Source: Acidobacteria bacterium RIFCSPLOWO2_12_FULL_66_21
GTDB taxonomy: Bacteria > Acidobacteriota > Vicinamibacteria > Vicinamibacterales > 2-12-FULL-66-21
Direction of reading: 5' to 3'
Length of the DNA stretch: 49,442 nt
Assembly (NCBI GenBank): GCA_001767455.1
Contig: MELC01000037.1
Location: forward strand, 1 to 49,442
Shown here: positions 27,896-49,442 of the stretch, in pieces
Numbering within the stretch: the stretch's first letter is position 1
How the letters are laid out: every line of letters starts with the position of its first letter
Position numbers and translations under genes: made by a program
Notes under the pieces: generated by a model
Told to the model about the DNA's origin: nothing
Seen by the model: the letters and a program-made list of their open reading frames with translations, nothing else
Database searches by the model: none

Positions 27896-29305
27896 GCCTC
27901 CATGCCGGCGAGCGCCGGCAGGCGTTCCGGCGGCCTCTCGGGCTGGCCGGTCGCACCCGCTGAGGGTGTGCCGATGACGCCCTTGACTTCGGACATGGCG
28001 ATGACCGGGATGAACCGGCAGAAGATCAGGAAGCAGGTGAAGAAGAGGCCGACGCTGCCGGCTAGCGTCGCGACCTCGATTGACGTGGGCGCGTAATCGG
28101 CCCAGCTCGACGGCAGGTAGTCGCGGTGCAGCGATGTCACGATGATCGTGAAGCGCTCGAACCACATCCCGATGTTGACGAAGATGGAGACGGCGAACAC
28201 GGCGCCGAGGTGCCGGCGCACGCGGGTGAACCAGAGCAACTGCGGCGCGATGACGTTGCACGAGACCATCGTCCAGTAGGCCCATGAAAACGGACCGAGC
28301 GCCCGGTTCATGAAGACGAACTGTTCGTACTGGTTCGCGGAGTAGAGCGCCATGAAGAACTCGGTGCCGTACGCGAGCGCCACCATGCCGCCGGTAGCTA
28401 TGACGAGCTTGCTCATGACGTCGACGTGGCGGCGTGTGATGTACCGCTCGAGGCGCATCGTCGCCCGCGCGATGATCATGAGCGTCAGGACCATCGCCAT
28501 GCCGGAGAAAATGGCGCCCGCGACGAAGTACGGCGGGAAGATCGTCGCATGCCAGCCTGGGATCACCGAGGTCGCGAAGTCCCAGCTCACGATGGTGTGC
28601 ACCGAAACGACGAGCGGCGTCGCCAGGCCCGCCAGGAGCAGGTAGACGATCTCGTAGCGCTGCCAGACGCGGTAGGAGCCGTTCCACCCCAGGCTGAACC
28701 AGGAGAGCAGCCGCTTGCCGAGCCCGGCGCGCGCGCGATCGCGCACGGTGGCCAGGTCGGGGATGAGGCCGACGTACCAGAACATGAGCGAGATCGTGAA
28801 GTACGTGCTGATCGCGAAGAAATCCCAGACGAGCGGCGATCGGAAATTGATCCACAGGGATCCGCGCGTGTTCGGGTACGGGAACATCCAGAACGCCAGC
28901 CAGGGGCGGCCCATGTGGATGAGGGGAAACAGCCCCGCACACATGACGGCGAACAGCGTCATCGCCTCGGCCGCTCGGTTCACCGACGTGCGCCAGCGCT
29001 GGCGCAGCAGGAAGAGGATGGCGGAGATGAGGGTGCCGGCGTGACCGATGCCGATCCAGAACACGAAGTTCGTGATGTCGAAGGCCCAGCCGACGGTCCG
29101 GTTGAGCCCCCACGTGCCGATGCCGGTGGCGATCTGGTAGCCGATCGCTGCGGTGCCCACGCCCAGCACGGACAGGGCCAGCAGGAATCCGACCCACCAG
29201 AGGACCGTCGGTCGGCCGCCGATCGGGCGGCAGATGTCCTCGGTCACCTGCGAGAGCGAATCGACCTCGACCCACGGCGCCTCGCGCGCCGCTGCCGCAA
29301 CGCGT

Positions 29306-29313
<8 letters not shown>
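27892..29313 (-). CDS. actC: Alternative complex III quinol-binding subunit ActC (NrfD-like)
   Basis: The 473-residue protein overlaps the actB stop by 8 nt. It has about ten spans and the NrfD/PsrC fold, with typical ActC stretches: [55 protein letters not shown] and [21 protein letters not shown]-like sequence near the end. ActC holds the quinol-oxidation site next to the iron-sulphur clusters of ActB. The conserved His in GIGHAG and Asp in WAFDITNF are at the expected place for proton handling. Confidence 0.9.
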
Positions 29314-32377
<3,064 letters not shown>

Positions 32378-32382
32378 GTGAA

Positions 32383-33036
32383 TCAGTAGTGGCACGTCAC
32401 ACAGTCGGTCGACGCGTTCACGGGTCTGCCGGCCACGCCCTGTGCCGTCGACGTGCGGTGACAGTTCACGCACCAGCCCATAGACAGCGTCGCCACCTGC
32501 CGCACTCGCTCCATGGTTTCGACGGGCCCATGACAGGTCTGGCACATGACGCCGGCTCTTACGTGGCTGCGGTGATCGAAATAGGCGAAGTCCGGCAGGT
32601 TGTGAACCTTCATCCACGCAACGGGTGTCGGCATACGCGCGGGATCCCGTTCGCCGCGATCGTCCAGCGCGAGCGCCGCATACAGCTTGGCCAGCTCGGG
32701 GCTCACGACTCGACGCGGCTTGCGCTTCTCCTGCTGTGCGCGCTCGTCCTCGGCACGGACGGCACCGGGCGGCGCGGTCACGAACTTGTGGCAGTTCATG
32801 CACACGTTGGCGGGCGGGATGCCGGCGCGACGGCTCCTCTCTGCCCCGGAGTGGCAGTAGAGACACGCCATCTGCAGGTCGCCCGCGTGGACGCGATGCG
32901 AGAAGGCGATGGGCTGCACGGGCTCGTAGCCCTGCTGATCCCCTGGCAGTCGCCAGGCGGTCAGCCGGGGTGCCAGCGCGAGCGTCGTGTAGCCCAGGCC
33001 GACGAGCAGCACGATGGTCAGGAGTCGATTCGACAT
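32383..33036 (-). CDS. actA: Alternative complex III pentaheme cytochrome c ActA
   Basis: The 217-residue protein has an N-terminal anchor (LLTIVLLVGLGYTTLALA) and five CxxCH sites: CLYCH (58-62), CMNCH (79-83), CQTCH, CVNCH and CVTCH, the last two residues from the end. IAFSHRVHAGDLQMACLYCH and FAYFDHRSHVRAGVMCQTCH supply distal His ligands as in the ActA family. It starts only 7 nt after the narI stop, with no room for a promoter or terminator. The nar and act genes therefore almost certainly share one transcript. Confidence 0.92.
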   Translation of the reverse strand: MSNRLLTIVLLVGLGYTTLALAPRLTAWRLPGDQQGYEPVQPIAFSHRVHAGDLQMACLYCHSGAERSRRAGIPPANVCMNCHKFVTAPPGAVRAEDERAQQEKRKPRRVVSPELAKLYAALALDDRGERDPARMPTPVAWMKVHNLPDFAYFDHRSHVRAGVMCQTCHGPVETMERVRQVATLSMGWCVNCHRTSTAQGVAGRPVNASTDCVTCHY

Positions 33037-33043
33037 CGCCGGT

Positions 33044-33751
33044 TCAGCCGTGCCGTGCCGGTGACGGCGCCCGGCGGTACCACCGCACGACCTGTGGGCG
33101 GCGCCACAGGTACGGATTGGGCACGACCAGCACGTGCACGAGGCGCGTGAACGGGAAGAAGAGAATCAGCAGGTAGGCGTTCGTGATGTGCAGCTTCACC
33201 GCCAGCGGCAACGGCGCAATGGCGCCGAGGTTCGGCGCGAGCTCCAGCAGCGACCACAGGTAGGGCGCCACGATCGCCGCAAACCACGACGAGCCCCACG
33301 GGTAGACCAGCGCGACATAGACACCGCTCGCGACCTGCATCAGCAGCAGCCCCAGGACGATCCAGTCGGTCACACTCGTCACCTCCCGAATCCGCGGCAC
33401 GTTCAGCCGTCGGGTGGCGATGGCGAGCAACCCCACGAGCGTCAGCAATCCGAAAATGAGTCCGGCCGCTTCGAGGACATAGAGGCGCGCCGGATGATCG
33501 TTCCACCACAGCAGTCCCGCGGGCAGGAAGAACGCGACGACGTGTCCCGTGAGCACCGTCAGGATGCCGTAATGAAACGGGACGAGGCCGTAGAAGTGCT
33601 GCTGGTTTTCGAGGAACTGTGACGACAGACTCGAATACGTGAACGCCTGGCCGCGATACCGCTCGATCGTCACCAGCAGGAAGGTGAACAGCGCCACGTA
33701 CGGCAGCACGCTGAAGAGCGCAACGTCGAGATAGTTGCCGGCGCTAGGCAC
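33044..33751 (-). CDS. narI: Respiratory nitrate reductase gamma subunit NarI
   Basis: The GTG at 33751 has GAGGAGG 6 nt before it and overlaps the narJ stop by 8 nt, so it is coupled. The 235-residue protein has five spans, starting LFSVLPYVALFTFLLVTIERYR. Heme b ligands are expected from the His pairs in YGLVPFHYGILTVLTGHVVAFFLP and in KLHITNAYLLILFFPFTRLVHVLV. NarI anchors NarGH to the inner membrane, oxidises quinol on the periplasmic side and passes electrons through two hemes b to NarH. Confidence 0.92.
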   Translation of the reverse strand: MPSAGNYLDVALFSVLPYVALFTFLLVTIERYRGQAFTYSSLSSQFLENQQHFYGLVPFHYGILTVLTGHVVAFFLPAGLLWWNDHPARLYVLEAAGLIFGLLTLVGLLAIATRRLNVPRIREVTSVTDWIVLGLLLMQVASGVYVALVYPWGSSWFAAIVAPYLWSLLELAPNLGAIAPLPLAVKLHITNAYLLILFFPFTRLVHVLVVPNPYLWRRPQVVRWYRRAPSPARHG

Positions 33752-34286
33752 CGTGGACCTCCTCGGCTGCAGCCGCGTGCGCCAGCAGGACGCTCCGGAC
33801 CGTGACCAGCAGCGCCTTGAATGGCGTGTCGGCGCTCTCGAGGCTGGCCAGCATCTTGTCGAGACCCGGCCGCAGGGCGTCGTCCAGTAGCGCGCGCGCC
33901 GCATCGGGGTCGAGGCACGCAGCCAGCTGGAGGAGGTGGGAGAGGTGGTCGGGCAGCTCGCCGTTCTCGACGATGCAGTGCCGGTCGAGCGCCTGTCGCA
34001 TGCGCACCATGAAGGCACCCCGCTCGTACTGCTCGCCAAACAGGTGCCAGCCCAGGTCCAGCGTGCACATCGGGTTGAGGTCGAAGGTGCGCGTGTACAG
34101 CTCCTGCTGCTGGTCGGTGGACAGGCCGCGCATGGCGTCGCCGAACGGCACGAACGCAGCCCGCAGTTCCGAGTCCAGTCGGCCGAGGTCCTCGCCGGTC
34201 GCGTCCACGTCTTCCAGGTAGCTCTCGCGCGGGTAGGTCACGAGGCGACCGAGCCTGACGAGAATCCCGTCGGTTGTTCGCGTCAC
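33744..34286 (-). CDS. narJ: Nitrate reductase assembly chaperone NarJ
   Basis: The GTG at 34286 overlaps the narH stop (GTGA). The 180-residue product is all-helical. TRTFDLNPMCTLDLGWHLFGEQYERGAFMVRM is the NarJ signature, followed by ELPDHLSHLLQLAACLD. NarJ (TorD-like family) inserts the molybdenum cofactor into NarG and holds NarGH until membrane docking. Its presence supports a working cytoplasmic nitrate reductase. Confidence 0.9.
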   Translation of the reverse strand: MTRTTDGILVRLGRLVTYPRESYLEDVDATGEDLGRLDSELRAAFVPFGDAMRGLSTDQQQELYTRTFDLNPMCTLDLGWHLFGEQYERGAFMVRMRQALDRHCIVENGELPDHLSHLLQLAACLDPDAARALLDDALRPGLDKMLASLESADTPFKALLVTVRSVLLAHAAAAEEVHGA

Positions 34287-35773
34287 AACCCCCTCCTCGG
34301 TCCCTGGAGGAAGCCGAAGCCGACGCCCTGCTTGTGCTCGAGCGGGTCCTCCAGCATCTCGATGGCCTCTTCCCGGTGCATGGGCGGAATCACGAACCGA
34401 TCGTCGAAGGTGCACAACGACGTGAGGCGGTAGATGGCCTCGGCCTCCTCGCTCGAGCAGTCGGCCTCGCGCAGCATGCGCTCGGCGACGCCCATCTCGA
34501 CGTCGCCCACCGTCAGCGCCCGCCGGTACCAGCGCACGGCCTTCTGCTTGCGCAGCGCGTAGCGCACCTTGCCCTCGTGGCCGGCCCCGAAGAGGTTCGC
34601 CAGGAACTTCATCGGCACGCGCGATGCGTCGATGTCATGAAAGAGATCGCCGGACACGTGCTCGACGACCCCACCAGTCTGCTGACCCATGACGGGCGAC
34701 ATCGGCGGCACGTAGAAGAGCATCGGCAGCGTCCGGTATTCGATGTGCGGCGGAAGCGCGATTTTCCAGATCTTCACGAATCGATAGACGGGCGACTTCT
34801 GGGCCGATTCCAGCACCGACTCGTGGATGCCGTTGCGGCGCGCCGCCTCGATGACCGCCGGATCGTGGGGATCGAGGATCAGCGACCGATGCGCGTCGAC
34901 CAGTTCCTCGTCGCTGCTCAACGCGACCTCGTGGATGCGGGCCGCGTCGTAGAGCAGCACACCCAGGTAGCGGATGCGCCCCACGCAGGAGTGGAAGCAC
35001 GCAGGTGCCTGTCCCGTCTCGAGGCGTGGGAAACAGAGGATGCACTTCTCGGACTTGCCAGTGGACCAGTTGTAGTAGGTCTTCTTGTAGGGACAGGCGG
35101 GCACGCACGCACGCCAGCCGCGGCACCGGTTCTGGTCGAGCAGGACGATGCCGTCCTCACCACGCTTGTAGAGCGCCCCTGACGGACAGGCGGCCACGCA
35201 GGACGGATTCAGACAGTGATTGCAAATGCGGGGGAAATAGAAGAAGACGAGCCGCTCCACCGCCGAGAGCTGGGCGCGCTGCTCCTCGGTGAGGCCGGCC
35301 AGATTCGGATCGTTCTCGGCATAGACCGGTGAGCCACCCAGGTCGTCGTCCCAGTTGGGACCGGCCTCGATGTCGATGTACTTGCCGGTGACCATCGAGA
35401 TGGGCTTGGCGGTCGGCTGATCGGGGCCCTCGGGCGCATTGAACAGCTCCTGGTAGTCGTAGGTCCACGGCTCGTAGTAGTCGTCCAGCGTCGGCAGGCT
35501 CGGATGGTGGAAGATGTTGGCGACAATCCGCGCCTTGCTCGTGGACTTCAGGCGCAGGTTCCCGTCGGCGACCTCCCAGCCGCCCCGATAGGACTGCTGG
35601 TCCTCCCACCGCGTCGGATAGCCGCAGCCCGGCTTGGTTTCGACGTTGTTCCACCACATGTACTCGGCGCCCCTGCGGTCGGTCCAGATGTTCTTGCAGG
35701 CAATGCTGCAGGTATGGCAGCCGATGCACTTGTCGAGGTGGAACACCATCGCGATCTGCGAGCGCACATCCAT
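34283..35773 (-). CDS. narH: Respiratory nitrate reductase beta subunit NarH
   Basis: The ATG at 35773 (AGGAG 7 nt before) is preferred to an in-frame GTG 3 nt earlier; it gives 496 residues. Four iron-sulphur sites are visible: CIGCHTCSIACKN, CNHCLNPSCVAACPSGALYKR, CRGWRACVPACPYKKTYYN (Trp replaces one Cys, as in the 3Fe-4S site of NarH) and CILCFPRLETGQAPACFHSCVGR. The sequence WWNNVETKPGCGYP is typical of NarH. NarH conducts electrons from NarI to NarG. A 39-nt gap containing a REP-like hairpin separates it from narG. Confidence 0.95.
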   Translation of the reverse strand: MDVRSQIAMVFHLDKCIGCHTCSIACKNIWTDRRGAEYMWWNNVETKPGCGYPTRWEDQQSYRGGWEVADGNLRLKSTSKARIVANIFHHPSLPTLDDYYEPWTYDYQELFNAPEGPDQPTAKPISMVTGKYIDIEAGPNWDDDLGGSPVYAENDPNLAGLTEEQRAQLSAVERLVFFYFPRICNHCLNPSCVAACPSGALYKRGEDGIVLLDQNRCRGWRACVPACPYKKTYYNWSTGKSEKCILCFPRLETGQAPACFHSCVGRIRYLGVLLYDAARIHEVALSSDEELVDAHRSLILDPHDPAVIEAARRNGIHESVLESAQKSPVYRFVKIWKIALPPHIEYRTLPMLFYVPPMSPVMGQQTGGVVEHVSGDLFHDIDASRVPMKFLANLFGAGHEGKVRYALRKQKAVRWYRRALTVGDVEMGVAERMLREADCSSEEAEAIYRLTSLCTFDDRFVIPPMHREEAIEMLEDPLEHKQGVGFGFLQGPRRGL

Positions 35774-35786
35774 CACTGAGCTCCTG

Positions 35787-35809
35787 GCGGCCCAAAGGCC
35801 GCGGCTACA
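35787..35809 (-). repeat. REP-like hairpin between narG and narH
   Basis: GCGGCC-CAAA-GGCCGC forms a perfect 6-bp stem at 35787-35802, flanked by GGCTACA. Its reverse complement reads TGTAGCC followed by the stem. The same plan (TGTAGC, stem, C) recurs at 48342-48365. It fills most of the narG-narH gap and could protect narG mRNA 3' ends or reduce read-through. Confidence 0.5.
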
Positions 35810-35812
35810 GGG

Positions 35813-38800
35813 CTACCACTTCAGTTCGGGCAGCTTGCGCACGAGGACGTGCGTATCGCGGTTGCAGCCCACCGGACCCCAGTAGTTGAAGTGGAACGTG
35901 AACTGGCCGTAGCCCCCCGCCATCAGGTTGGGCTTCAGCCGCGTCCGGGTGAGGCTGTTGTGACCGCCGGCGCGGCGGTACCCGCGCAGCGGCGACTTCG
36001 GAACCGAGTAGGTGCGCTCGGGCGAGTGGTACTGGATGCAGATCCCGCGCGGGATCCGCGCGCTCACCGCGGCGCGCGTGACGACCACGCCGTGATCGTT
36101 GTGCACTTCGACCCAGTCGTTGTCGTTAATCCCGATGTCGGCCGCATCGTGGTCGTTGATCCAGAACGGCTCCACGCCGCGCGAGAGCGTCGTCATCCGC
36201 TGGTTGTCGCCGTAGGTCGAGTGGATGTGCCACTTGCCGTGCGGCGTCAGGTAGTTCAGGAGCTTGGTCGGACCAACCTCGTGACTGACGCGCAGGTCCG
36301 CGTACTCGACCGGCTTGGGCTTTGGCTTGTAGGTCGGAAGGTGCTCGCCGAACTGGAGGTAGAGCGGGTGGTCGAGGTAGAGGTGCTGCCGTCCGGTCAG
36401 CGTGCGCCACGGCACCAGGCATTCGACGTTGTAGGTGAACGGTGAGTACGCGCGGCCGTTGCTCATCAGGCCCGACCACATCGGACTGTTGACGAAGCGC
36501 ATCGGGCGCGCCTGCAGGCCCTTGTAGTCGATCCGGACGTCGCGCGATTTCTCGGCGAGCTGCACGAGCGGACGGCCGACTCTGCGCTCCATGTCGCGGT
36601 ACGAGCGATAGGCCAGCTCCCCGTTGGTCACCGAGGCGAAGCGCAGGATCACGTTGCAGACGTCCTCGTCCTCAGCCAGCGAGGGATACCGCCGACCGCC
36701 CCAGGCGATCGAAGGGATGGCGACCAGCGCCTTGTCGTACTCGTCGTCAATCTCGTAGTGCGTGCCGTGCGCCCCGAGGCCCTTCTCGCGTGCAAGCGGA
36801 CCGAACGACACGTACTGGTTGAACAGGTTGCGGTAGTCCCGCGTGACCACCTTGAGGCCCGGCATGGTCACACCGGGCTGCGCCTGCACCTCTCCCTTGC
36901 GCCAGTCGGCCATGGTTGGCTGGGCGACTTCGGCAGCCGTGTCGTGGGCGAGTGGCGTCGCCACCAGGTCCTTCACAGGCTCGGGAAAGTGCTTGATGGC
37001 CAGCTCCGAGAACTTGCGGGCGATCGCCTTGAAGATCTGCCAGTCGGACTTCGACTCCCAGCAGGGAGGAACCGCCGCCGACAGCGGATGGATGAAGCTG
37101 TGCAGGTCGGTCGAGTTCAGGTCGGCCTTCTCGTACCACGTCGCCGCGGGCAGGACGATGTCCGAGTAGAGTGCGGACGTGTCCATCCGGAAATTGAGGT
37201 CGACCACGAGGTCCATCTTGCCCGTGGGCACCTTGTCGTGCCACGTCACCTCCTTGACCGAGTCCTGGGCGATCTCATCGGCGATCGCGTTCGAGTGCGT
37301 ACCGAGGTAGTGCTTGAGGAAGTACTCGTGGCCCTTGGCGCTGGCGAGCAGGGCGTTGCCGCGCCAGATGAACCAGACGCGCGGCCAGTTCTCGGGGGCA
37401 TCCGGGTCGTCGACGGCGAACTTGAGCCGCCCCGCCTCGAGCTCCTCGACCGCGTACCGCACGACGTCGTCGGGATCCGTGCGCCCGGCGGCTTCGGCGT
37501 CGCGCACGACCTGGAGCGGGCTCCGGTCGAACTGGGGATAGAACGGCAGCCAGCCACTTCGGACGGCGCGCGCCTGGACGTCGATCGTGTGTCCCCTGGC
37601 CAGCGTGTCGGCCGGCTGGTCGATCGGCACGGTGTGGTAGTCGGTGAAGTCCTTCTCGTAGCGCCACTGGTCGGTGTTGACGTAGTGCCAGCTCGGCGCG
37701 TTCTGGAGACGCGACGGTCCGTACCAGTCCTTGCCGAAGGCGATGGCGCTCCAGGGTTCGCCCGGAGCGAGCTTCTCCTGGCCGACGTAATGGGCCAGGC
37801 CGCCGCCGTTCACGCCCACGCACCCGCAGAACATGAGCGCGTTGATGGCGGCGCGGTACATCAGGTTGCCGTGGTACCAGTGGTTGATCCCGGCGCCGAT
37901 GATGACCGTGCACCGTCCCTTCGTGTGCTCGGCGGTCGTGCCCCACTCCCGCGCGAAACGCAGCAGCATCTCGCGCCCCATGCCGGTGTACTTCTCAGCC
38001 CACGCCGGCGTGTACGCCCGCATCGCGTCGTCGTAGCTCTCCGGGTAGTCGCCCGCGAGCCCGCGCGGCACGCCGTACTGTGCCATCAGGAGATCGTAGA
38101 CGGTGGCAACCGTGACGGTTGACCCGTTTGCCGTCTGGACCCGCTTGACCGGCACGCCACGCACGGTGATCCGGCCTTCGCCGAAGTCGTCAAGGCGCAC
38201 CTGCGCGATGGCGTCGTGGTCGTCGACGAAGGTGAGCACCGGGTCGATCTCCGCGCCGCTGATCCCGTCCTTGAGCTCGAGATTCCACTTGCCCGGCTCC
38301 TGGCCCCAGCGAAACCCGGAGCTGCCCATCGGCATGCGCGGGCGATTCTCGTCGCGGTTCCACATCAGGAACTTCCACTCCGGCTGCTCGATGCCCGCGT
38401 AGTCGGCGAGGCGTCCGGCGCGCAGCATCTGGCCCGGGCGGTACTCCCCGTCCATGGCTTCGAGCTCGACGAGGTACGGCGCGTCGGTGAACCGCTTCGT
38501 GTAGTCGATGAAGTAGGGCACCTGGCGGTCGTGGTGGAACTCCTTGAGCAGGACGTGGTTGACCGCCATCCACCACGCACCGTCCTGGCCGGCGTTGATC
38601 GAGACCCACTCGTCCGCGTATTTCGCCACCTGGTTGAAATCCGGCGCGAAGACCCAGAGCTTCGAGCCGTTGTGACGCGCTTCGGCGGCGAAGTGGCAGT
38701 CCGGTGTCCGCGTCATGTTCAGGTTCGAGCCCATGACGGCGAGCAGCTTGGCGTTGTACCAGTCCGCCGATTCGTGGACGTCGGTCTGCTCACCCCATGC

Positions 38801-39457
38801 TTCGGGTGAAGCCGGCGGCAGGTCGCAGTACCAGTCGTAGAACGAGAGCGACACGCCGCCCATCAACTGCAGGAACCGGGCGCCGGAGGCGTAGCTGATC
38901 ATCGACATCGCCGGAATGGGCGAGAAGCCGGCGATGCGGTCGGGGCCCCACTTCTTCGCGGTGTAGACGTTAGCTGCGGCGATGAGCTCGAGCATGGTCT
39001 CCCAGTCGGCCCGCCGGAACCCACCCTTGCCGCGTGCGCGCTGCCAGCGCTCGCGCTTGACCGGATCTTCGACGAGCGTCCGCCAGGCTTCGACCGGATC
39101 CTCGGTGGTGGCGCGCGCATCGCGCCACAGATCGAGCAATGCGCCCCGGGCGTATGGGTATTTCACGCGGAGCGGGCTGTAGAGGTACCAGGAGTACGAG
39201 ATCCCGCGCTGGCAGCCACGAGGCTCGTACGGCGGTAGCCCTTCTTCGAGCGACGGGTAGTCGAGACCCTGCATCTCCCAGGTCACGATGCCGTCCTTCA
39301 CGAAGATCTGCCACGTACAGCCGCCGGTGCAGTTCACGCCGTGCGTGCTGCGGACGATCTTGTCGTGCTGCCAGCGGTTCCGGTAGAACTCCTCCCAGCT
39401 GCGCAGGCGTGGGTTGGATTCGTCCTTGATCCAGGCCAGCACCTTCTTCGAGCTCAT
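35813..39457 (-). CDS. narG: Respiratory nitrate reductase alpha subunit NarG
   Basis: The 1214-residue protein aligns with E. coli NarG (1247) with a constant 10-residue offset. The [4Fe-4S] FS0 ligands are His39, Cys43, Cys47 (HGVNCTGGC) and Cys82 (RGCQRG). The molybdenum ligand is Asp212 in [10 protein letters not shown]. There is no Tat signal and no twin Arg, so the enzyme faces the cytoplasm. It reduces nitrate to nitrite at a bis-MGD molybdenum centre. The ATG overlaps the narC stop (ATGA), with GGAGAGG before it. Nitrite oxidoreductases of the Nitrobacter type share this family, so reverse catalysis cannot be excluded from motifs alone. Confidence 0.96.
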
Positions 39458-40317
39458 CGTGTGCCTCTCCGGGCTATGCGATCGACCAGCGTCCGCCGCA
39501 CGTTACGAAAGCGCTCCTGCCAGGCGAGATCGAACACGACCAGGCTGAAGACCGTTCCGGCCAGGCCAATGAGGAAGAACGTGAGAGGCGCCACCGGGCC
39601 CTCCGTGCCGCGGCGCAGCGCCGCGTCCTCCAGCAATGCGAGCAGCGGAAGGATCTCCTCCGCCCGGAGGGGCGCGGGCGAGAACAGGGTCTGCATGGTG
39701 GGCGTGGCCGGCGCGGTCAGCCATGCGCCGACTCCCTTGCGGCCACCCAGCCGTTCGTACACGAGAGTGAGATCGGGGCCGAGTTTGCCACCGCCCATGG
39801 CGCCGACGCCGCCGATGCTGTGACACGAGAGACAGGGCGGCCCACCTGTCGCGAGGCGCTTCGTGCCGAGGAAGATCTGCGTCCCTGCCGCCACGTCCGC
39901 CGGCGTGAACGGCCGATCGCTCAACTGCAACCCGACGAACTGCGATTTCTCGAGCTTCGACTCGGCCTCGATCAGGGCGATCAGGCCGTCGGCCATGGCG
40001 GGGTTCATCCCGGGCAGCGCCGGCATCACGACGCCGCGCGCCTCCTGCAGGAGTTGTGCGGCGTACGGGTCGCCCGAGTCGATGACCACCTTCGGGTTCT
40101 GGATGAAGTGCACCAGCCACGCGCGGTCCTTGCGGGCGACGACGTTCTTGAGATCGGGACCGGTGAGCCGGCCGCCCCCGACGGTATGGCACGCCACGCA
40201 GTTCTGTCGGAAGAAGGTCGCGGGTTCCTGTGCCCTGACTCGAGGCGCTACGCCTGCCGCCAGCACCGCAACGACCAACGGCATCCGTGCGGCCTTCATC
40301 GCCAGTGGCCAGTTCAC
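39454..40317 (-). CDS. narC: Diheme cytochrome c of the nar operon, NarC-like
   Basis: The GTG at 40317 has GGGAGG 6 nt before it. The 287-residue protein has a signal peptide (to about VRAQ, residue 30) and two c-type heme sites: CVACH (40-44) and CLSCH (162-166). A C-terminal membrane anchor lies at about 243-265, followed by a basic tail. A membrane-anchored diheme cytochrome as first gene before narGHJI is the arrangement of the Thermus narCGHJI operon, where NarC is needed for NarG-dependent respiration. It overlaps narG by 4 nt. I name it by position, heme number and topology, as I could not align the sequences. Confidence 0.75.
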
Positions 40318-40926: not shown

Positions 40927-40940
40927 AGACCTCAGGGGGG

Positions 40941-41053
40941 TGCTGAGGGGTGCTGAAAGGTGCTGAAAGGTGCTGAAAGGTGCTGAAGGGTGCTGAAGGG
41001 TGCTGAAAGGTGCTGAGGGGTGCTGAAGGGTGCTGAGGGGTGCTGAGGGGTGC
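40941..41053. repeat. Decamer minisatellite TGCTGARRGG
   Basis: Eleven head-to-tail copies of a 10-bp unit, TGCTGAAAGG, TGCTGAAGGG or TGCTGAGGGG, run from 40941 to 41050, followed by a partial copy. The unit length is not a multiple of three, so it does not code for a fixed peptide repeat. It fills most of the gap between the permease fragment and the next gene's end at 41122. Confidence 0.92.
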
Positions 41054-41121: not shown

Positions 41122-42942
41122 TCACCGTATCGTAAGGTCCTGCGTTTTGCGCTCGCCCTCGGCCAGCCTGAGCTTCACGGCACTGGCGGCAAGGCGTTGA
41201 AGGACTTCCGGGTCGAACCACTCGCCGTCCTCCAGATCGGCGGCAGCCACGGCCAGGTACTCGCCCGGCGGCAGATTGCGCACTGTGAACCGGCCGGAGG
41301 GGTCGGGAGCAATCGCCGCAATGCGCCGCGAGTTGGCGAACCACGATGCCCTGTCCGAGCCGAACACGACGATGAAACATCCCGGGTCGGGATGGCCGCG
41401 CGCGTCGGTAACGGTGACCGCCAGCTCGGTCGCGCGTTCGGAGAATGTCACGACGACGTCGCTCGTGGATTGCCGCAGGTCCATGGGGCCATCGAGCAGC
41501 TCCTGGCCACCCGCCGTCAGGGACTTCACCCACCAGCTGCCAACGGGCGTACGGATACCTGGCACGTTGCTCCTGGTGAACCGGTAGGGACCGGGGATCA
41601 GATCGGGAATCGTGAAGCGGCCGGTGGCATCGAGCTGCAGCGAAGGGATGGGCATCGGCATGTTGCTGTTGGCCATCTGCATCGCCGGGATCGGGACGCG
41701 CAGTTTCGAGAAATCAACCGTTGGCTGGCGCGACCCCTCGAACACGACGCGGCCGGAGATCGTGATGCCGGGCTGCAGCGCGAGCGAGATGCCCGTGACG
41801 TCCTCCCCCTGCACCGTGACGCTCGCGAAACCCCAGTACATCGTGCCGCCGGTCGCGGTCTGCGGCGGGGGTGATCCGGCCATGCCTCCGAGAGGCGACG
41901 GCCGGACGGCCACGGTGTACTGCCCCGGCGGAATGCCGTTGAACGAGAATCGGCCATCGGCATCGGGCCCTGTGAGACGAGCCCTCCCGCTGGAGACGGA
42001 CGGGTCGGCTGAGTACAACCAGATTAACGTTCCGCGCGGAACGCTCGCTGGAGAAATCATGACGCCGTCGATCTTCGACGTCGGCACGTACTGCACCTGG
42101 ATGTCGAGGCCGTTTCGTTCCTCGCCGTGGATCACCGTCAGTGTCGAGGCCTCGGCGGCGACGGGGGTTCCCGGATAGTAGATCGGCGCGTACGTGACGC
42201 CGCGCGGCGATTCGGCTCGCGCCGCGGCATCCGAGTTGACACCTGCGGAGGCGGCGGAGCCGTTGCGCACCTCGGCCAGCGCCTGCTGGATCTCGGCCGT
42301 CGAGAGCAATCGCATGTCGGTATCCGCGGGCACTGGCAGGAGCCGCGGCTGGGTCTGGAGCACGTACCGTCCAGCCGCGAGCCCGTAAATGCGGTACGCG
42401 CCACGGTCGTCCGTGTATGTCGACTGACTCGCCACGAGCCGCCGCTCGCCGGTGCTCGTGTCCAGGCGGTACTTCATCGCGGCGACGTACGCGCGAGGCA
42501 GAGGCTGGCCCTCGGGATCCACGATGGTCCCGGCGATGACCGCCCCTCTGGGGATCTTGACCGTGACGGTCTGGCGCTGACCGTCAGCGAGTACGATCGG
42601 CGCGCCTCTCGAACCGGGGCGGCGCGCGCCGTACGTCATTGTGATGTACGCCTCCTTCCCCGCGCCAAGCGTATAGGGGCCCGCTGCGAGTCCGTCGAAG
42701 GCAAACGTGCCGTCCTCCGCCGTGACCGCCGCCAAACCGACCGGCAACTCGGCGCCGCTCAGGGCCACCCGGGCGCGGCGGAGCGGTCTCGGTTCCGGCT
42801 CATCCGACAGCACCACGCCCGCGATGGAGGCCGTGCCGGCTTTCGCCAGCGGCCGCCCGTCGCGCGCCGGCTGTTGCGCCGGCGCCGGCGACGCGGCAAG
42901 GCAGATCGCGAACGTCACAGCGAGCGACCGCGCGCTCATCAT
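41122..42942 (-). CDS. Carboxypeptidase-regulatory-like secreted protein, type A (copy 1)
   Basis: The first of two adjacent ATGs, at 42942, overlaps the upstream stop (ATGA) and gives 606 residues. A signal peptide ends near PAPAQQ. Several Ig-like carboxypeptidase-regulatory domains follow, each with a G-x-V strand and a later D-G-x-F/Y-x-F...PPG/AAGxYTL strand: IAGVVLSDEPEPRPLRRARV, IAGTIVDPEGQPLPRAYV and ISGRVVFEGSRQPTVDF. The C-terminus is PPGEYLAVAAADL with GEWFDPEVLQRLA. About 42 % of the array is built of this type. Such proteins are abundant in Acidobacteriota; no catalytic motif is present. It is the last gene of the array. Confidence 0.75.
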   Translation of the reverse strand: MMSARSLAVTFAICLAASPAPAQQPARDGRPLAKAGTASIAGVVLSDEPEPRPLRRARVALSGAELPVGLAAVTAEDGTFAFDGLAAGPYTLGAGKEAYITMTYGARRPGSRGAPIVLADGQRQTVTVKIPRGAVIAGTIVDPEGQPLPRAYVAAMKYRLDTSTGERRLVASQSTYTDDRGAYRIYGLAAGRYVLQTQPRLLPVPADTDMRLLSTAEIQQALAEVRNGSAASAGVNSDAAARAESPRGVTYAPIYYPGTPVAAEASTLTVIHGEERNGLDIQVQYVPTSKIDGVMISPASVPRGTLIWLYSADPSVSSGRARLTGPDADGRFSFNGIPPGQYTVAVRPSPLGGMAGSPPPQTATGGTMYWGFASVTVQGEDVTGISLALQPGITISGRVVFEGSRQPTVDFSKLRVPIPAMQMANSNMPMPIPSLQLDATGRFTIPDLIPGPYRFTRSNVPGIRTPVGSWWVKSLTAGGQELLDGPMDLRQSTSDVVVTFSERATELAVTVTDARGHPDPGCFIVVFGSDRASWFANSRRIAAIAPDPSGRFTVRNLPPGEYLAVAAADLEDGEWFDPEVLQRLAASAVKLRLAEGERKTQDLTIR

Positions 42943-44702
42943 CGGACATCCCTCGTGTGCAGATCCTGCGTTTTCTTCTCTCCGTCGCCGATGCTGACGC
43001 GCGTCGCGAGGCGCGCCAGCGACTCCATGAACTTCGTCTCCCGCCAGTCGGCCGCCTGATCGTCGTGAACGGCCACCGCGTAGTAGTCGCCTGGAAGGAG
43101 GGAAGGAAAGTTGTACTCTCCGGTTGCACTCGTCCGCACGCTGCGGATCCGTCGCGGGTTCATCCCGAAGGCGGACCACATCTGCTCATCTACGGGAAAG
43201 ACGAGGACGGTGGCGTCCGGATCCGGGCCGTCAGCGGATTGGACCATTCCCCGCATGCCGCTCCATCGATCGGTGAAGGTGATGACGAGCCCGGTGGCAT
43301 CGCCGCCCCGGAGATCGAAGGGCGTGTCGGCGACGTCGCGGCCGTTGTACATCGCCGATTTGAACATCCATCCCTGCGGCGAGCCGCCGATGCGGACGAA
43401 GTACTTGCCCGGTGGAACGTCGGCCGTCGTGAATTGACCACTCGCGTCCACGCGCGAGGGACCGGCGCCTCCGGAAATCGACGCCGGTCCGTCGGCGGCA
43501 TCGACGACAACCGGCACTTGCGCGAGCCGCTGCGCCGCCGGCTTCTCCATCGCGCCGTCGAACTCGAACCGTCCGGTCACGCGCAATCCCCGCTGCAGCG
43601 AGACGACAACGCCGTCGATGTCGGTTCGGCCGACGCTCAGGGGTGTGGCCGCCCATAGCACCGACGGCAGCGCCGTCTGTGCGCCCGGCGTCCTGGAGCG
43701 CGCGGCAACTCGGATCGTGTAGTCTCCCGACGCGACAGCGAAGAAGGTGAAGGCGCCCGTCTGATCGGAAATCGCGGAGGGGGCGTCCTGCTCGAGCGAG
43801 ACGGCCTCGTTGCCCGACGCGAGCATCTGGAGCTGCATCGAGGCGGCCGGTCCATCCGGACCGGTGACGACACCGGATACGCGCACGCCGCGGATCGGAT
43901 GCAGCGCGATGTCCACCGCCGTGCGCTCCTCTCCGGATCCGAGCGGCACGATAGTCGCCTGATCCAGGGGGCCCGACGGCGAGAACGTTGGTGGGTACAC
44001 GAACACCGCCTGGCCTTTCGATGGCGGCGGGACGGGAATGCCGCGCCCGATCGCATACGCAGGCTGCCCAAAGGCCGATCCAGTCATCATGACGGGCGCG
44101 GTGATCGGCTGCGCCGTTGCCGCGACGACGTAGTCGCCGGGTATCAGGTCACCGAGGCGATAGATCCCGCGATCGTCGGACATCGCGGTTGACGCGCTGA
44201 CGAAGCGGCGCCGCCCCTCGACGACGGAGCGCCGAAACGCCCTGATCTGTACGCCGACGATCGCCTCGCCCGCTTCGTCCACGACCGTGCCAGAGATGGA
44301 CGCGACCCGCCACATCTTCACCATCACATCGCCCACGCGCCCGCCCGGCTTGATTTCGATCGGTTGCGACGGACCGCCCGGCCGCCGGCGCCCGGTGGCG
44401 CCGTCCGCGTACCCACTCTTGTACGCGCTGATGGTGAAGCTGCCGCGCGGGAGATCGCGGAAGACGAAGTAGCCGTCGCTGCCGGTCAGGATCCGCGGGG
44501 GTGGCGTTGGGCGCGGCCCCGTAGCAGGGAACAAGAACTCGCCGCCGATCGAGACGATGGCGCCTGACAGCGGTTTACCGGTTGCCGCATCGACCACCTG
44601 GCCGACGATGAGACCCGTCCGCGGATCCGGCGCGGGCGGGCTCTGGACAGCGGTCTGTCCCAGCAACGCAAGCGCGAGCGCGCCGAATGGGATGATTTTC
44701 AC
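42939..44702 (-). CDS. Carboxypeptidase-regulatory-like secreted protein, type B (copy 1)
   Basis: The GTG at 44702 overlaps the preceding stop (GTGA) and gives 587 residues. Type B differs from type A in beginning after the signal with PDPRTGLIVGQVVDAATGKPLSGAIVSI and a GSDGYFVFRDLPRGSFTISAYKSGY strand. It then has ISGTVVDEAGEAIVGVQIRAFRR, and ends with LLPGDYYAVAVHDDQAADW and the tail GEKKTQDLHTRDVR. The middle FVRIGGSPQGWMFKSAMYNGRD motif is shared with copy 2. All domains look like beta sandwiches of the carboxypeptidase-regulatory class, and the function is unknown. It is coupled on both sides by 4-nt overlaps. Confidence 0.75.
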   Translation of the reverse strand: MKIIPFGALALALLGQTAVQSPPAPDPRTGLIVGQVVDAATGKPLSGAIVSIGGEFLFPATGPRPTPPPRILTGSDGYFVFRDLPRGSFTISAYKSGYADGATGRRRPGGPSQPIEIKPGGRVGDVMVKMWRVASISGTVVDEAGEAIVGVQIRAFRRSVVEGRRRFVSASTAMSDDRGIYRLGDLIPGDYVVAATAQPITAPVMMTGSAFGQPAYAIGRGIPVPPPSKGQAVFVYPPTFSPSGPLDQATIVPLGSGEERTAVDIALHPIRGVRVSGVVTGPDGPAASMQLQMLASGNEAVSLEQDAPSAISDQTGAFTFFAVASGDYTIRVAARSRTPGAQTALPSVLWAATPLSVGRTDIDGVVVSLQRGLRVTGRFEFDGAMEKPAAQRLAQVPVVVDAADGPASISGGAGPSRVDASGQFTTADVPPGKYFVRIGGSPQGWMFKSAMYNGRDVADTPFDLRGGDATGLVITFTDRWSGMRGMVQSADGPDPDATVLVFPVDEQMWSAFGMNPRRIRSVRTSATGEYNFPSLLPGDYYAVAVHDDQAADWRETKFMESLARLATRVSIGDGEKKTQDLHTRDVR

Positions 44703-46534
44703 CGCACCGTGACGTCCAACGTCTTGCGCTCGCCCTCGGCCAGCGAGAGCTTCGTCGCCAGGGGCGCGAGGCGCTGCAGGATCTCGGGGTCGAACCACTC
44801 TCGATCGTCGACATCGGCGGAGGCGACCGCGAGGTAGGTGCCCGGCGGGAGATTGCGGATCGTGAACCGTCCTTCCGCGTCCGGCCGGACGCCCGCGATC
44901 CGGCGCGAATCGGTGAACCAGAACTGGCTGTCGGCCGCGAACACGAGAGCAAAGGCATTGGACGCGGGGTTCCCCTGCGCATCGGTGACCGTGCCCGACA
45001 GTTCCGTGGCGCGATCCGAAAACGTGACAACCACGTCGTCGATCGACTGGCGGATGTCGACGACGCTGTCGAGGAGATCGCGGCCCCCGGCGACGACGGA
45101 TTTCAGCCACCACGCGCCGATGGGCGAGCGCATGCCCTGGGCCGTGGTCGTCAGTCGATACGGGCCGGGAATCACGTCGCCGATCGTGAAGCGGCCGGTG
45201 GCGTCGAGCCGCACCATCGGGCTCGGTATCGGAAGATTGCCGACGGCAAGCCGCAGCGGCGGCACGGGCACGCGCACCTGCGAGAAATCGATGGCCGGCG
45301 GCGTCGCGCCTTCGAACACGACGCGCCCGGAGATGGTGAGCCCGGGCTGGAGCGTCAGTGTCACGCCGGCCAGATCTTCTCCCTGGACGGCGACGGTGCC
45401 CAGCGCCCAGTACATGGAGGCACTCACAGCCCCAGGCGCCGCCGGCTGCGGGCGCGGAGCGCCCGCCATGGCCCCCAGCGGCACCGGCCTCACGATGAGG
45501 TTGTACTGCCCGGGCGGTACTGCGTTGAACGTGAAACGCCCGTCCGGTCCGGCGCTGGCGACGCGCACGCTGTCGACCGCAAGGGTGGGGTCCGACGAAT
45601 TCAGCATGACCGGCGTCACCTGAGGGAGGGCGGCAGCCGAGATCACCATGCCTTCGATTTTCGCGGTCGGAACGTACTGCATCTGAATGTCGATCCCGGT
45701 CCGCTCCTCGCCCGGTGCAACCGTGACCGTCGATGCCTGCGCGGAGACAGCCGTACCCGGGTAGTACACGGGAGCGTACGCGACCGTGCGCCGCGGCTCG
45801 TTGGCCTTTGTCGTCGCAGCGCTCGGGCTCTGTGCGGGCGCCTGCGGTGGTCCACCCTGCCGTTCAGACAGCGCCTGCTGGATTTCGCCAGCCGGAACGA
45901 CACGGATATCGAGGGAGCTGACTGAAAACTGCTCCACCCCCGCGGAGATCACGTAGCCTCCCGCCGGAAGCCCGAAGATGCGGTACTCGCCGCGATCGTC
46001 GGTCGCCGACGAGGGCGCGCCGGCCGACACCAGGCGGCGCTCGCCTACACCCGGCACGAATCGATAGGTGAGCGCGGAGACGAGCACGCCCCGCATCGGC
46101 TGCCCTTCGGGGTCGAGGACGGTGCCAGTGATGACGCTGCCTCTCGGGATCCGTAACGTCACGCGCTGGCGTTGCCCGTCGGCCACCGCGACCGGCGTGC
46201 CCTGGGCGTTCGGCCGGCGCGCGCCGTATGACATCCTCACGTAGGCTTCCTTCGCAGCCGCGAGCGTGTATCGGCCGGCCGGCAGCCTCTCGAACGTGAA
46301 GCTGCCATCGTCAGCGGTGATGGAGGTCCGACCCATCGCGAGCTCCGGGCCGTTCAGCGTGACGCGCGCGCGGCGGAGCGGCCGGGGTTGCGCCTCGTCG
46401 GACGTCACGACTCCGGAGATGGAAGCGGTGCCGATCTTATCCGCCGGCCGCGTGTCGCGCGGCGGCTGCTGCGCCGCCAGGTGCGCCGCGGCGAAGCAGA
46501 CGGCGGCGAATATGGAGAGCGCCTTGATCCGCAT
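44699..46534 (-). CDS. Carboxypeptidase-regulatory-like secreted protein, type A (copy 2)
   Basis: The ATG at 46534 shares a base with the previous stop (TGATG); the product has 611 residues. It is a close paralogue of 41122-42942: signal peptide ending LAAQQPP, then GTASISGVVTSDEAQPRPLRRARVTL, TYGARRPN-like and ITGTVLDPEGQPMRGVLVSALTYRF strands. The C-terminus is PPGTYLAVASADVDDREWFDPEILQRLAP. A low-complexity Pro/Ala/Ser stretch lies about residue 230. It shows that an A-B pair was duplicated in tandem. Confidence 0.75.
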   Translation of the reverse strand: MRIKALSIFAAVCFAAAHLAAQQPPRDTRPADKIGTASISGVVTSDEAQPRPLRRARVTLNGPELAMGRTSITADDGSFTFERLPAGRYTLAAAKEAYVRMSYGARRPNAQGTPVAVADGQRQRVTLRIPRGSVITGTVLDPEGQPMRGVLVSALTYRFVPGVGERRLVSAGAPSSATDDRGEYRIFGLPAGGYVISAGVEQFSVSSLDIRVVPAGEIQQALSERQGGPPQAPAQSPSAATTKANEPRRTVAYAPVYYPGTAVSAQASTVTVAPGEERTGIDIQMQYVPTAKIEGMVISAAALPQVTPVMLNSSDPTLAVDSVRVASAGPDGRFTFNAVPPGQYNLIVRPVPLGAMAGAPRPQPAAPGAVSASMYWALGTVAVQGEDLAGVTLTLQPGLTISGRVVFEGATPPAIDFSQVRVPVPPLRLAVGNLPIPSPMVRLDATGRFTIGDVIPGPYRLTTTAQGMRSPIGAWWLKSVVAGGRDLLDSVVDIRQSIDDVVVTFSDRATELSGTVTDAQGNPASNAFALVFAADSQFWFTDSRRIAGVRPDAEGRFTIRNLPPGTYLAVASADVDDREWFDPEILQRLAPLATKLSLAEGERKTLDVTVR

Positions 46535-48339
46535 CAGCGCACCTCGCGGACACGAAGGTCCTGGGATTTCTTCTCGCCTTCGTCGATCGTAATCCGCGTG
46601 GCGACGCGCGCCAGCGCCTCCAGGAATTTCGGATCCTGCCAATCGGCCGCGTCGTCCTCGGGAATGGCGACGACGTAGTAGTCGCCAGGGAGGAGCGACG
46701 GGAAGTTGTATTCGCCCGCGGCGTTCGCGCGCGCCTGGCGGATGCGGCGTGGATTCAGGCCGGTGGCCGTCCACATCCCGGCGTCGACAGGAAACACGAG
46801 GACGGTCGCGTCGGTCGCCGGCGCCTGGCCTGCCTGGACCACGCCGCGCAGCCCGCTCCATCGGTCGGTGAAGGTGATGACCACGCCCGTGGCATTCGCG
46901 CCCTGGAGATCGAACGGCGCATCGGCGATGTCGCGGCCGTTGTACATCGCCGACTTGAACATCCAGCCCTGCGGCGAGCCGCCGATCCGCACGAAATATC
47001 TGCCGGGGGGATAGTCGGCTGTCGTGAACTGACCGTTCGAATCGACTGACGGCGGCGGGGTCTGGCCGAGCATGGCCAGCGGACCGTCCGCGGGTTCCAC
47101 CGTGACCGGTATTTGCGCCAGGCGCTGCGCAACTGGTCGTGTCGCAACGCCATCGAACTCGAAGCGTCCGCTGATACGAAGACCGGCCTGAAGCGTCACC
47201 GTCACACCATCGATGTCCGTACGGCCAACCGCCACCGGCATCTCCGCCCACAGCACTTGTGCGATCTGCCCATCCGGGCCCCGAGTGCGCGGACGCGCCG
47301 AGACGCGGAGCGTGTACTGGCCGGACGGCACGCCCGCGAATGTGAACGCGCCGGTGTTGTCCGACACGGTCGAGGGCACGGCCAGGTCGAACCCGACATC
47401 ATCGCTATCGGGCGGGATCAGTTCCAGTGGCACGCCTGGCTGCGGGCCTTCCGCGCCGCTGACGACGCCCGAAAGGCGGACCGCACGAACAGGATGCAGG
47501 GCGACGTCAACGCCCGATCGTTCCTCTCCCGAGGTGAGTGTCACGACGGTGGCTTGAGTCGCTCCGCCGGAGGGCGAATAGGTCGCCGGATACACCAGCA
47601 ACTCGCCTTCCGCCGTCAATGCCGGCGTGGGAGTACCTCGCTCGAGCCCGTAGACCGCGTCGCCGACCTGGATGGCACTCCCCGTCCCGGGCGGCCTCAC
47701 CTCGGCGAACATGCCCGATCGCACCGCCGCGATCGGCGCCGTGACCGATCGCGTCGCCACGGCGACCACGTAGTCGCCTGGCGTGAGAGTGCCAAAGCGG
47801 TACATCCCGCGGTCGTCGGTCAGTGCGATCCCGGAAGTGACGGTCCTTCGGCTGCCGGCCACGACATTACGACGGTACGCCCTCACCTGCACGCGAACGA
47901 CCGCCTCGCCCGCTTCGTCGGTGACCGTGCCGGATATCGCGGCGTATTTCCACATGATCAACGTGAGGTTGGTGCGGCGTTCGGCTTCGCGAAGCGCGAC
48001 CGGCTGTACCGGACCACGGGGACGCCGTCGTCCGACCGAACCGTCCACGTATCCTGGCTTCGAAGCGGTGATCGTGAAGCTGCCGCGCTGCAGATCGCGA
48101 AACAGGAAATAGCCATCACTGCCGGTCAGGACGCGCGAGGGAGGCGAGGGACGCTGCCCGGGGGCAGGAGGTTCCGAAGGGGCGCTGATCGACACGATGG
48201 CCCCCGCGATTGGCTTGCCGCTGGTCGCGTCAACGACCTGCCCGACGATGAGCCCGGTCCGCGGATCGGGGGCAGCCGGCCGCTGCACGGCGGCCTGCAT
48301 CAGCAGCGCGATGAATATGAATGTTCCGAGTCTCATCAT
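46534..48339 (-). CDS. Carboxypeptidase-regulatory-like secreted protein, type B (copy 2)
   Basis: The 601-residue protein begins with adjacent ATGs at 48339 and 48336, with no strong ribosome site. It is a paralogue of 42939-44702: the start PDPRTGLIVGQVVDATSGKPIAGAIVSI, the block FVRIGGSPQGWMFKSAMYNGRD and the end LLPGDYYVVAIPEDDAADW are nearly the same. The B-type tail is GEKKSQDLRVREVR. The 28-nt gap to the upstream gene holds a REP-like hairpin, the only break in coupling within the array. Confidence 0.75.
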   Translation of the reverse strand: MMRLGTFIFIALLMQAAVQRPAAPDPRTGLIVGQVVDATSGKPIAGAIVSISAPSEPPAPGQRPSPPSRVLTGSDGYFLFRDLQRGSFTITASKPGYVDGSVGRRRPRGPVQPVALREAERRTNLTLIMWKYAAISGTVTDEAGEAVVRVQVRAYRRNVVAGSRRTVTSGIALTDDRGMYRFGTLTPGDYVVAVATRSVTAPIAAVRSGMFAEVRPPGTGSAIQVGDAVYGLERGTPTPALTAEGELLVYPATYSPSGGATQATVVTLTSGEERSGVDVALHPVRAVRLSGVVSGAEGPQPGVPLELIPPDSDDVGFDLAVPSTVSDNTGAFTFAGVPSGQYTLRVSARPRTRGPDGQIAQVLWAEMPVAVGRTDIDGVTVTLQAGLRISGRFEFDGVATRPVAQRLAQIPVTVEPADGPLAMLGQTPPPSVDSNGQFTTADYPPGRYFVRIGGSPQGWMFKSAMYNGRDIADAPFDLQGANATGVVITFTDRWSGLRGVVQAGQAPATDATVLVFPVDAGMWTATGLNPRRIRQARANAAGEYNFPSLLPGDYYVVAIPEDDAADWQDPKFLEALARVATRITIDEGEKKSQDLRVREVR

Positions 48340-48341
48340 CT

Positions 48342-48365
48342 GTAGCGCAGCCCTTCAGGGCTGCC
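48342..48365 (-). repeat. REP-like hairpin in the type A/B array
   Basis: GCAGCCC-TTCA-GGGCTGC (48347-48364) is a perfect 7-bp stem with a 4-nt loop, preceded on the plus strand by TGTAGC. It has the same plan as the narG-narH hairpin. It lies between the stop of the type A copy 3 gene and the start of type B copy 2. Confidence 0.5.
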
Positions 48366-48367
48366 TC

Positions 48368-49442
48368 TCATCGCACCGTCAGGTCCTGGGTCTTGTGCTC
48401 CCCGTCACCGAGCGCCGTGGTGGCCGCCAGCATCGCGAAGCGCTGGAGGAACGCAGGATCGTACCACTCCCCCTGCTCGACGTCGCTGACGGCCGCAATC
48501 AGGTACTCCCCGGGCGGCATGTTGCGGAGGCTGTACTTGCCATCGGACGCGGGCCGGATGGCATTGATGCGGCGCGACTGCGCCGTCCACTGCATGCGAT
48601 CGGTCGGCGCCACGACGACGTAGCACGCCGGCGACGGCTCGCCGGCCGCGTCGCGCACGACGCCCGCGAACTCCGTCGTGCGGTCCGTGAACGTGATGAC
48701 GGCGTCCTCGACGCTCTTCTGGAGCTGGTAGGGCGCGGTGAGCGTGTCCTGTCCGTCCATCACGGACGACTTCAGCATCCACGGCGATCGATCCGGCAGC
48801 CCGGCGGAGAGCGACGCGGCGGACAACGTCGCGGTCAGCCGGTACCGGCCCGGCGTGACGCCCGAGATCGTGAACTGGCCCTGGGCATCCACACGCGCAG
48901 GGGACGTCACGAGGCTCATTTCGCCGGGTCCCTGAATCGGCGTCAACGTGATTCGAATCGCTGCAAGGTTGGACGGCGGCGCCGTCGGCCCCTCGAACGC
49001 AAGCCGTCCCTTGATCGTGAAGCCGCGCTGCAGCGTGAGGGGAAAGTCGGTAAGGTCCGTACCTTCGACGGTGAGGTCGGCCGCGGCCCAGAGGGTACCG
49101 ACATCCGGCATGGCTGACGTCGACGTCGCCCCCGCCGACGCTCGCGAGCTGACGACGTATCGACCGGGCGCGATGCCGTTCACCGTGAACTTGCCTTCGG
49201 CGTCCGCGCGGGTCACGCGGATGCTGTCCATCATTGCAGCGGCGGACGCATTGGCGATGAGCGTCACCGTCGTCATCGCGGGCGGCGGCGTGCCGTCTGA
49301 GTTCGCGACAGTTCCGCTGACGCGCGCCATCGGCACGAACTGGAGCTGGAAGTCGATGCCGCCGCGTTCCTCCCCTTGGGCGACCGAAATCGTCGCGGCT
49401 TCCCCGAGCTGCGTGGTGCCGGGATAATACACCGCGGCATAG
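48368..49442 (-). CDS. Carboxypeptidase-regulatory-like secreted protein, type A (copy 3), partial
   Basis: The frame is open to the window end (reading YAAVYYPGTTQLGEA at the edge), so the N-terminal part lies outside. The visible 358 residues match the second half of the type A proteins: YYPGT, then GEERGGIDFQLQFVPMARVSGTV, LTLQRGFTIKGRLAFEG, VDAQGQFTISGVTPGRYRL and the C-terminus PPGEYLIAAVSDVEQGEWYDPAFLQRFA. It is more divergent from copies 1 and 2 than they are from each other, by eye. The promoter of the whole array must lie beyond the window. Confidence 0.75.
   Translation of the reverse strand, partial: YAAVYYPGTTQLGEAATISVAQGEERGGIDFQLQFVPMARVSGTVANSDGTPPPAMTTVTLIANASAAAMMDSIRVTRADAEGKFTVNGIAPGRYVVSSRASAGATSTSAMPDVGTLWAAADLTVEGTDLTDFPLTLQRGFTIKGRLAFEGPTAPPSNLAAIRITLTPIQGPGEMSLVTSPARVDAQGQFTISGVTPGRYRLTATLSAASLSAGLPDRSPWMLKSSVMDGQDTLTAPYQLQKSVEDAVITFTDRTTEFAGVVRDAAGEPSPACYVVVAPTDRMQWTAQSRRINAIRPASDGKYSLRNMPPGEYLIAAVSDVEQGEWYDPAFLQRFAMLAATTALGDGEHKTQDLTVR

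Follow-up and report, generated by a model that had tools for sequence, protein, structure and literature searches.

A recurrent B-A gene pair in Acidobacteriota and its putative secreted heteromer of transthyretin-like rod proteins

Why should genes of two related types alternate without a break along one strand of a bacterial contig, and what might their products do together? The question is raised by positions 41122-49442 of contig MELC01000037.1 from Acidobacteria bacterium RIFCSPLOWO2_12_FULL_66_21, where the minus strand carries five genes of two alternating paralogous types, here called A and B. The window, meaning the whole stretch of DNA that was analysed, is this entire contig (C37; 49,442 bases), one of 91 in a source genome of 6.48 Mb. 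We find that the array consists of tandem copies of a two-gene unit, B followed by A, and that its strict alternation is a consequence of this. The unit recurs elsewhere in the genome and in relatives. The reading we favour, with middling confidence, is that B-A is a conserved two-gene operon whose two rod-like products are most likely secreted and joined in a heteromer.

In the direction of transcription, starting from the right contig end, the window holds the 3' part of A1 (48368..49442, 357 residues read, falling in the A clade of the tree), B1 (46534..48339, 601 residues), A2 (44699..46534, 611 residues), B2 (42939..44702, 587 residues, GTG start) and A3 (41122..42942, 606 residues), all on the minus strand. 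The five alternating genes had been described in the original prediction, and its account of them agrees with ours in the characteristic C-terminal tails (GEW-F/Y-DP-LQR in type A, DYY-ADW-GEKK in type B) and in a repeated unit of ~3.6 kb. It had also proposed extending the contig to count units, with a break of the alternation upstream as evidence against its reading, and no such break is seen: the last 74 bp of the window (49369..49442) are identical to C22:120171-120244, and across this overlap contig C22 contributes the 5' part of A1 (L007:4434-5244) and one more B gene, B0, before which the array ends. A misjoin of the two contig ends is unlikely, since the 74-bp sequence has no further match in the genome beyond the right ends of C37 and C22 and the reading frame of A1 is preserved. 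The full array, ~11.0 kb by arithmetic from the coordinates, therefore reads B0-A1-B1-A2-B2-A3, three complete B-A units; the predicted alternation stands, and the predicted A-B-A-B-A order is replaced by B then A. We rejected the idea that the repeats are near-identical assembly copies because the measured units are only 57-61% identical (A2/A3 57%, B1/B2 61%, over aligned codons). Judged from these sequences, the three tandem units most likely arose by duplication of the whole B-A unit, and genes of two types alternate strictly because what was copied was a unit of two genes.

Chance is excluded as the source of this order because B-A recurs at six other sites of the genome and in 15 related genomes. 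The source genome thus has at least nine B-A pairs, and those of the relatives fall in two families of a single taxonomic order, presumably Vicinamibacterales. Of the 32 B genes outside the array that score at least 480 bits, 31 precede an A gene in the same orientation; for four of these a contig end truncates the A gene. The B-like rows number 36, of which four below 250 bits were not counted: two are cut by contig ends, one is a remnant before an A remnant and one a fragment before a full A. A B profile matched at 1e-115 or better in 21 of 193 genomes of the class and, in a sample of 396 from the phylum, in 7. A genes account for part of these matches; sorting of the candidates by A, B and C models placed B genes in 16 genomes (six of the 12 of family f1 and ten of family f11). 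Because few candidates per genome were scored (at most seven in the order search, six in the class search and three in the phylum search), the numbers of B genes and pairs outside family f1 are lower bounds. An additional contig scan gave 13 loci, among which L021 is a B-A pair on the same record as one f11 genome, an uncultured Acidobacteria bacterium, and the remainder are C-type or more distant; no B was found among 13 further loci sorted late. Three f11 loci (L092, L094 and L096) each hold two divergent pairs, back to back. Apparent remnants of a second, divergent B-A pair are seen at two others (L099:8341-9318 and L095:8904-9554).

How are the two genes of a unit joined? In each unit of the array the stop codon of B overlaps the start codon of A, by 4 nucleotides (nt) at B0-A1 (GTGA), 1 nt at B1-A2 (TGATG) and 4 nt at B2-A3 (ATGA). 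Between units, A2 and B2 overlap by 4 nt (GTGA), and A1 and B1 are separated by a 28-nt gap (48340..48367, minus strand), the sole non-overlapping junction within the array. Of the 31 B-A junctions outside it, 23 have a 4-nt and five a 1-nt overlap, and three (C20, G001 and G010) have none. Altogether 31 of 34 junctions overlap (25 by 4 nt, six by 1 nt), so that the 4- or 1-nt stop-start overlap that marks a translationally coupled pair is kept across relatives. The start codons at these junctions were picked among candidates, and several junctions have alternatives. As a control, the 31 outside junctions contain 86 starts in 1141 in-frame codons; the position giving a 4-nt overlap is occupied in 23 of 31, that giving a 1-nt overlap in seven, and every other offset in at most seven.

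Excerpts of a study by Huber and colleagues (PMC10666635) state that short overlaps couple translation, that they are enriched among subunits of heteromeric complexes, and that a spacing of ~20 nt nearly abolishes coupling. Excerpts of an earlier paper from the same authors (PMC6728339) report that 13 of the 14 pairs tested were strictly coupled, and its text gives no match to two terms on complexes. By analogy with these pairs, the stop-start overlap probably couples the translation of A with that of B; the gene arrangement suggests that this would hold in the present organism and that the two genes share a single transcript. Because the 28-nt gap exceeds the ~20-nt spacing given in those excerpts of PMC10666635, the coupled unit would be B-A, and A1 and B1 should be uncoupled. 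The original prediction, which had every junction overlapping, is upheld at B1-A2, A2-B2 and B2-A3 and fails at A1-B1; its proposal that A and B form pairs is strengthened for B-A by the overlaps and by the largely congruent trees described below.

The two types have descended largely in step. A and B are 30-35% identical to each other in comparisons within the window, and the A and B proteins of most relatives are only ~30-45% identical to the window copies. A tree of 38 relatives within the source genome has nine A and ten B genes in two clades of similar branching. In a 67-row tree, which leaves out the C15 pair (its A is short) and includes eight solo A genes, one branch (support 93) sets apart 26 A and another (100) sets apart 26 B. 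Among A and among B alike, array units 2 and 3 are sister to each other, and a cluster of eight units (the array's three together with C38, G001, G005, G008 and G010) is recovered in both halves (91 for A, 95 for B). The eight solo A genes lie outside the paired A, within one 34-row group together with them (98). A single recent burst of all copies was rejected, as C29, C91, C20 and C79 branch outside the array's clade. The A and B distances are correlated in Mantel tests (r = 0.81 over 27 pairs, r = 0.95 over the 14 pairs of family f11). The source genome's nine pairs give r = 0.82, with none of 20000 shuffles as high; r is 0.85 without the truncated C15 pair (19 of 20000) and 0.65 when only one of units 2 and 3 is also kept (184 of 20000). 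The A and B trees are largely congruent at the level of sequence. The ratio of nonsynonymous to synonymous divergence (dN/dS), a comparison that the original prediction had proposed for the A and B copies, is 0.27 for A2/A3 and 0.24 for B1/B2, which indicates purifying selection on the single pair of units compared. These two newest units of the array have equal dS in A and B (1.18 and 1.20), near saturation.

What kind of proteins are these? All five window proteins match the CarboxypepD_reg family (PF13620) at 73.7-139 bits against a cut-off of 32.3, with three to five matching stretches each; the four complete ones have four or five, B1 four and A2 five. AlphaFold models of A2 and B1 (mean predicted local distance difference test scores of 74.0 and 74.5; predicted template modelling scores of 0.59 and 0.57) show about five sandwiches each, as counted from the strands, with a weak stretch near residues 200-248. 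A and B are thus predicted to be related families, each a chain of about five transthyretin-like beta-sandwiches. The first domain aligns with the transthyretin-like domain of human carboxypeptidase D with Z-scores of 12.5 (A2) and 12.0 (B1) and root-mean-square deviations of 1.4 and 1.6 over 81 residues. The structure matches mostly cover residues 28-285 of B1 and 32-396 of A2, the other parts being barely tested. Pilins, MSCRAMMs, teneurins and the SlaB stalk likewise match by structure, and the shared sandwich fold shows no function. Hydrophobic segments at the N-termini, that of B1 among them, resemble signal peptides, and both A and B are probably exported through them. After residue 30, none of the four complete window proteins has a 19-residue window above 1.6, i.e. 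a later hydrophobic segment, and none has a C-terminal sorting tail. Across 20 B and 19 A sequences, neither Lys nor Asn occurs in columns with at least 90% conservation, which speaks against Lys-Asn/Asp isopeptide bonds as a family-wide feature. No plug or beta-barrel Pfam match was found at E 1 or better in the five window proteins, and the A2 and B1 models end after the last sandwich. Domains of this type abound in genomes of this lineage: the source genome has 313 CarboxypepD_reg candidates, the best 150 of which were scored and matched, and some of the frames exceed 900 codons.

We favour a secreted heteromer because conservation of the pair, the overlap and co-inheritance coincide. In this scheme A, its translation coupled to that of B, and B itself would each leave the cytoplasm by way of an N-terminal signal peptide, would pair outside it (in the periplasm, on the outer surface or in the medium) and may then serve as a structural or binding rod. 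A number of observations weigh against this. One B gene of the 32 (C66 of the source genome) has no A, and A-type genes without a full B before them amount to 18 rows, of which L138 begins at a contig edge, and one fragment (L104-L106, L126, L128-L134, L136-L142 and L115); L134 has a short B-like fragment directly upstream. Overlaps of 4 nt, widespread in bacteria according to excerpts of PMC10666635, also join C-type genes of the source genome, namely the pairs at C30, C52 and C81 and two of the four junctions of a run on C39, the other two being short gaps. The frames of that run (C39:75484-85565; L002 and L003), five in all, are C-type relatives of A and B. Runs of this coupled kind are frequent in the source genome, and B-A is the pair type traced across relatives. 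In the trees, C79 joins G061 among B (100) and not visibly among A, G065 joins G067b among A (95) and not among B, and G005 and G008 are placed differently in the two halves. The Mantel test over the five deepest pairs of the source genome gives no signal (r = 0.27; 5691 of 20000), and when partners are swapped within f11 genomes 1272 of 20000 trials reach the observed value, about what is expected if the true pairing is the best of 16 arrangements, so that this test goes no further than 1 in 16. Duplication of the dicistron by itself yields congruent trees. The signal peptides were judged by eye only, and contact between A and B is deduced from indirect evidence.

Several of these points would be accommodated if A and B were functionally separate secreted proteins, kept together as a co-copied operon in which the overlaps serve compact co-expression. 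Duplication of the unit would suffice for the mirror trees, A-type genes do occur without B, and short overlaps, besides joining the C-type relatives, are described in excerpts of PMC10666635 as the commonest same-strand gene spacing in bacteria. We nevertheless regard this as rather unlikely: 31 of 34 junctions, spread over two families, retain the order and the overlap despite the ~30-45% identity, a B lacks its A only once in 32, and no neighbour family is found in more than 6 of 29 loci. The original prediction proposed that A and B may pair into an extracellular fibre or surface layer (S-layer). In this view the two would alternate as its subunits, with the tandem copies raising dosage or varying the surface, and support comes from the fold. 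Chains of Ig-like sandwiches resemble domains of pilins, MSCRAMMs and S-layer stalks (Foldseek E down to 9.6e-16), and one SlaB domain matches with Z-scores of 11.5 and 9.4; the domain of carboxypeptidase D, at 12.0 and 12.5, is a better match. NCBIfam gives weak matches to an anammox S-layer protein (best E 5.8e-10), and we rejected S-layer identity on this ground since 37 bits is far below the cut-off of 1400. The absence of a later hydrophobic segment or sorting tail in the four complete window proteins and of Lys in the conserved columns argues further against a fibre, and units that are 57-61% identical are unlike a recent dosage array. We think a fibre or S-layer improbable, the evidence giving it no specific support.

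The genes around the pairs suggest another role, in which the pair would assist exported peptidases or transporters, for instance as a rod for docking or for binding substrate; such a role is compatible with a heteromer. The largest neighbour family in BLAST clustering, present at 6 of the 29 loci, turned out in the three members that were scanned to be large M14 zinc carboxypeptidases, whose genes adjoin A at the pairs in G008 (L089:9828-12884; same strand, 77 nt past A), G067 (L103:10912-14000; same strand) and G069 (L094:12447-15617; convergent with A). Clustering adds G072 and G068, both of the same genus as G069, and C15, where the gene lies ~5.7 kb off. Other exported-type peptidase genes occur near pairs (M61 at C38, a met-zincin at C91 and M28 at G001), as do MacB/FtsX permease genes (C38, C29 and C15). 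The peptidase family thus varies by locus, and M14 genes are not rare, 16 genomes having between 2 and 18 matching stretches each. An M14 gene is not the next gene at any of the nine pairs of the source genome, the one at C15 being the nearest, and the pattern was noticed after the fact, without a control. We treat the peptidase genes beside the pairs as a lead only, and the accessory role itself as very unlikely.

Upstream of B0 the next gene, on the same strand, codes for a flavin adenine dinucleotide-binding, berberine-bridge-type oxidase, preceded by an amidase gene on the opposite strand. Just downstream of A3 the window has a tandem decamer repeat, GGGTGCTGAA, in 11.6 copies (40938..41053; no strand assigned), which is also found upstream of B0 on C22 (117328-117367), so that the array is flanked on both sides. 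It was not treated as part of the B-A unit because it is scattered over the genome (at least 108 matches to two units with at most one mismatch, against 0 for a reversed control), and it is probably a flank of the array and not a component of it. No promoter-like site was found, and four terminator-like sites compare with 3.2 in shuffled sequence. The decamer is followed by a cytochrome c gene, which stands beside a nitrate-reductase-like cluster with gamma, beta and molybdopterin subunits (window 33044-40317). Further along, a molybdopterin Fe4S4/ferredoxin-type protein adjoins an NrfD-type membrane protein (window 27892-32866).

The B-A module, with order and overlap kept in two families, singles out one subset of CarboxypepD_reg proteins for which a heteromer is a testable hypothesis. 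A search of open-licence literature by domain and lineage names found no paper on the role of CarboxypepD_reg proteins or of such pairs. It is conceivable, and we would call it doubtful, that Acidobacteriota possess in B-A a class of secreted transthyretin-rod heteromers, built of two subunits, that has not been described before. If so, the source genome, in which at least nine pairs have diverged and three stand in a row, would amount to a natural collection of paired rods, each faithful to its own partner and perhaps directed at a different target or peptidase client. So many pairs in a single genome would permit a test of partner choice among paralogues.

How does the pair compare with systems already known? 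Its domain type is that of the CarboxypepD_reg (PF13620), transthyretin-like, SdrD_B and SpaA families. What is different is that A and B have about five such domains in a row, without a peptidase, receptor barrel or anchor domain, and the lack of plug and barrel sets the window proteins apart from TonB-dependent receptors with an N-terminal CarboxypepD_reg domain. The best sequence match in the PDB is NOMO, a BOS complex subunit with transthyretin-like domains in a row (E 6e-19 for A, 1.4e-21 for B). NOMO is a eukaryotic endoplasmic reticulum membrane protein, a membrane-anchored lumenal rod of about twelve domains, whereas A and B are bacterial, have about five (in the A2 and B1 models) and, in the four complete window proteins, lack any hydrophobic segment past the N-terminal one. 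The top Foldseek rows are CnaB-like sandwich chains, namely Gram-positive pilins and MSCRAMMs (BcpA, RrgB, SpaA/SpaD, PitA and SdrD) and the TIE protein, but whole-chain TM-scores to these are low, mostly 0.1-0.2, and A and B lack both the C-terminal hydrophobic sorting signal of the sortase-assembled ones and a conserved Lys or Asn for isopeptide bonds. The two-component S-layer SlaA/SlaB (8qox) also consists of two different exported proteins, and one SlaB domain aligns with one A or B domain; the match is limited to that domain. The overlapping gene pairs coding for heteromers in excerpts of PMC10666635 likewise have 4- or 1-nt overlaps between two co-inherited genes, but in the B-A unit the partners are paralogous multi-domain proteins, probably exported, and the heteromer is one that their pairing suggests.

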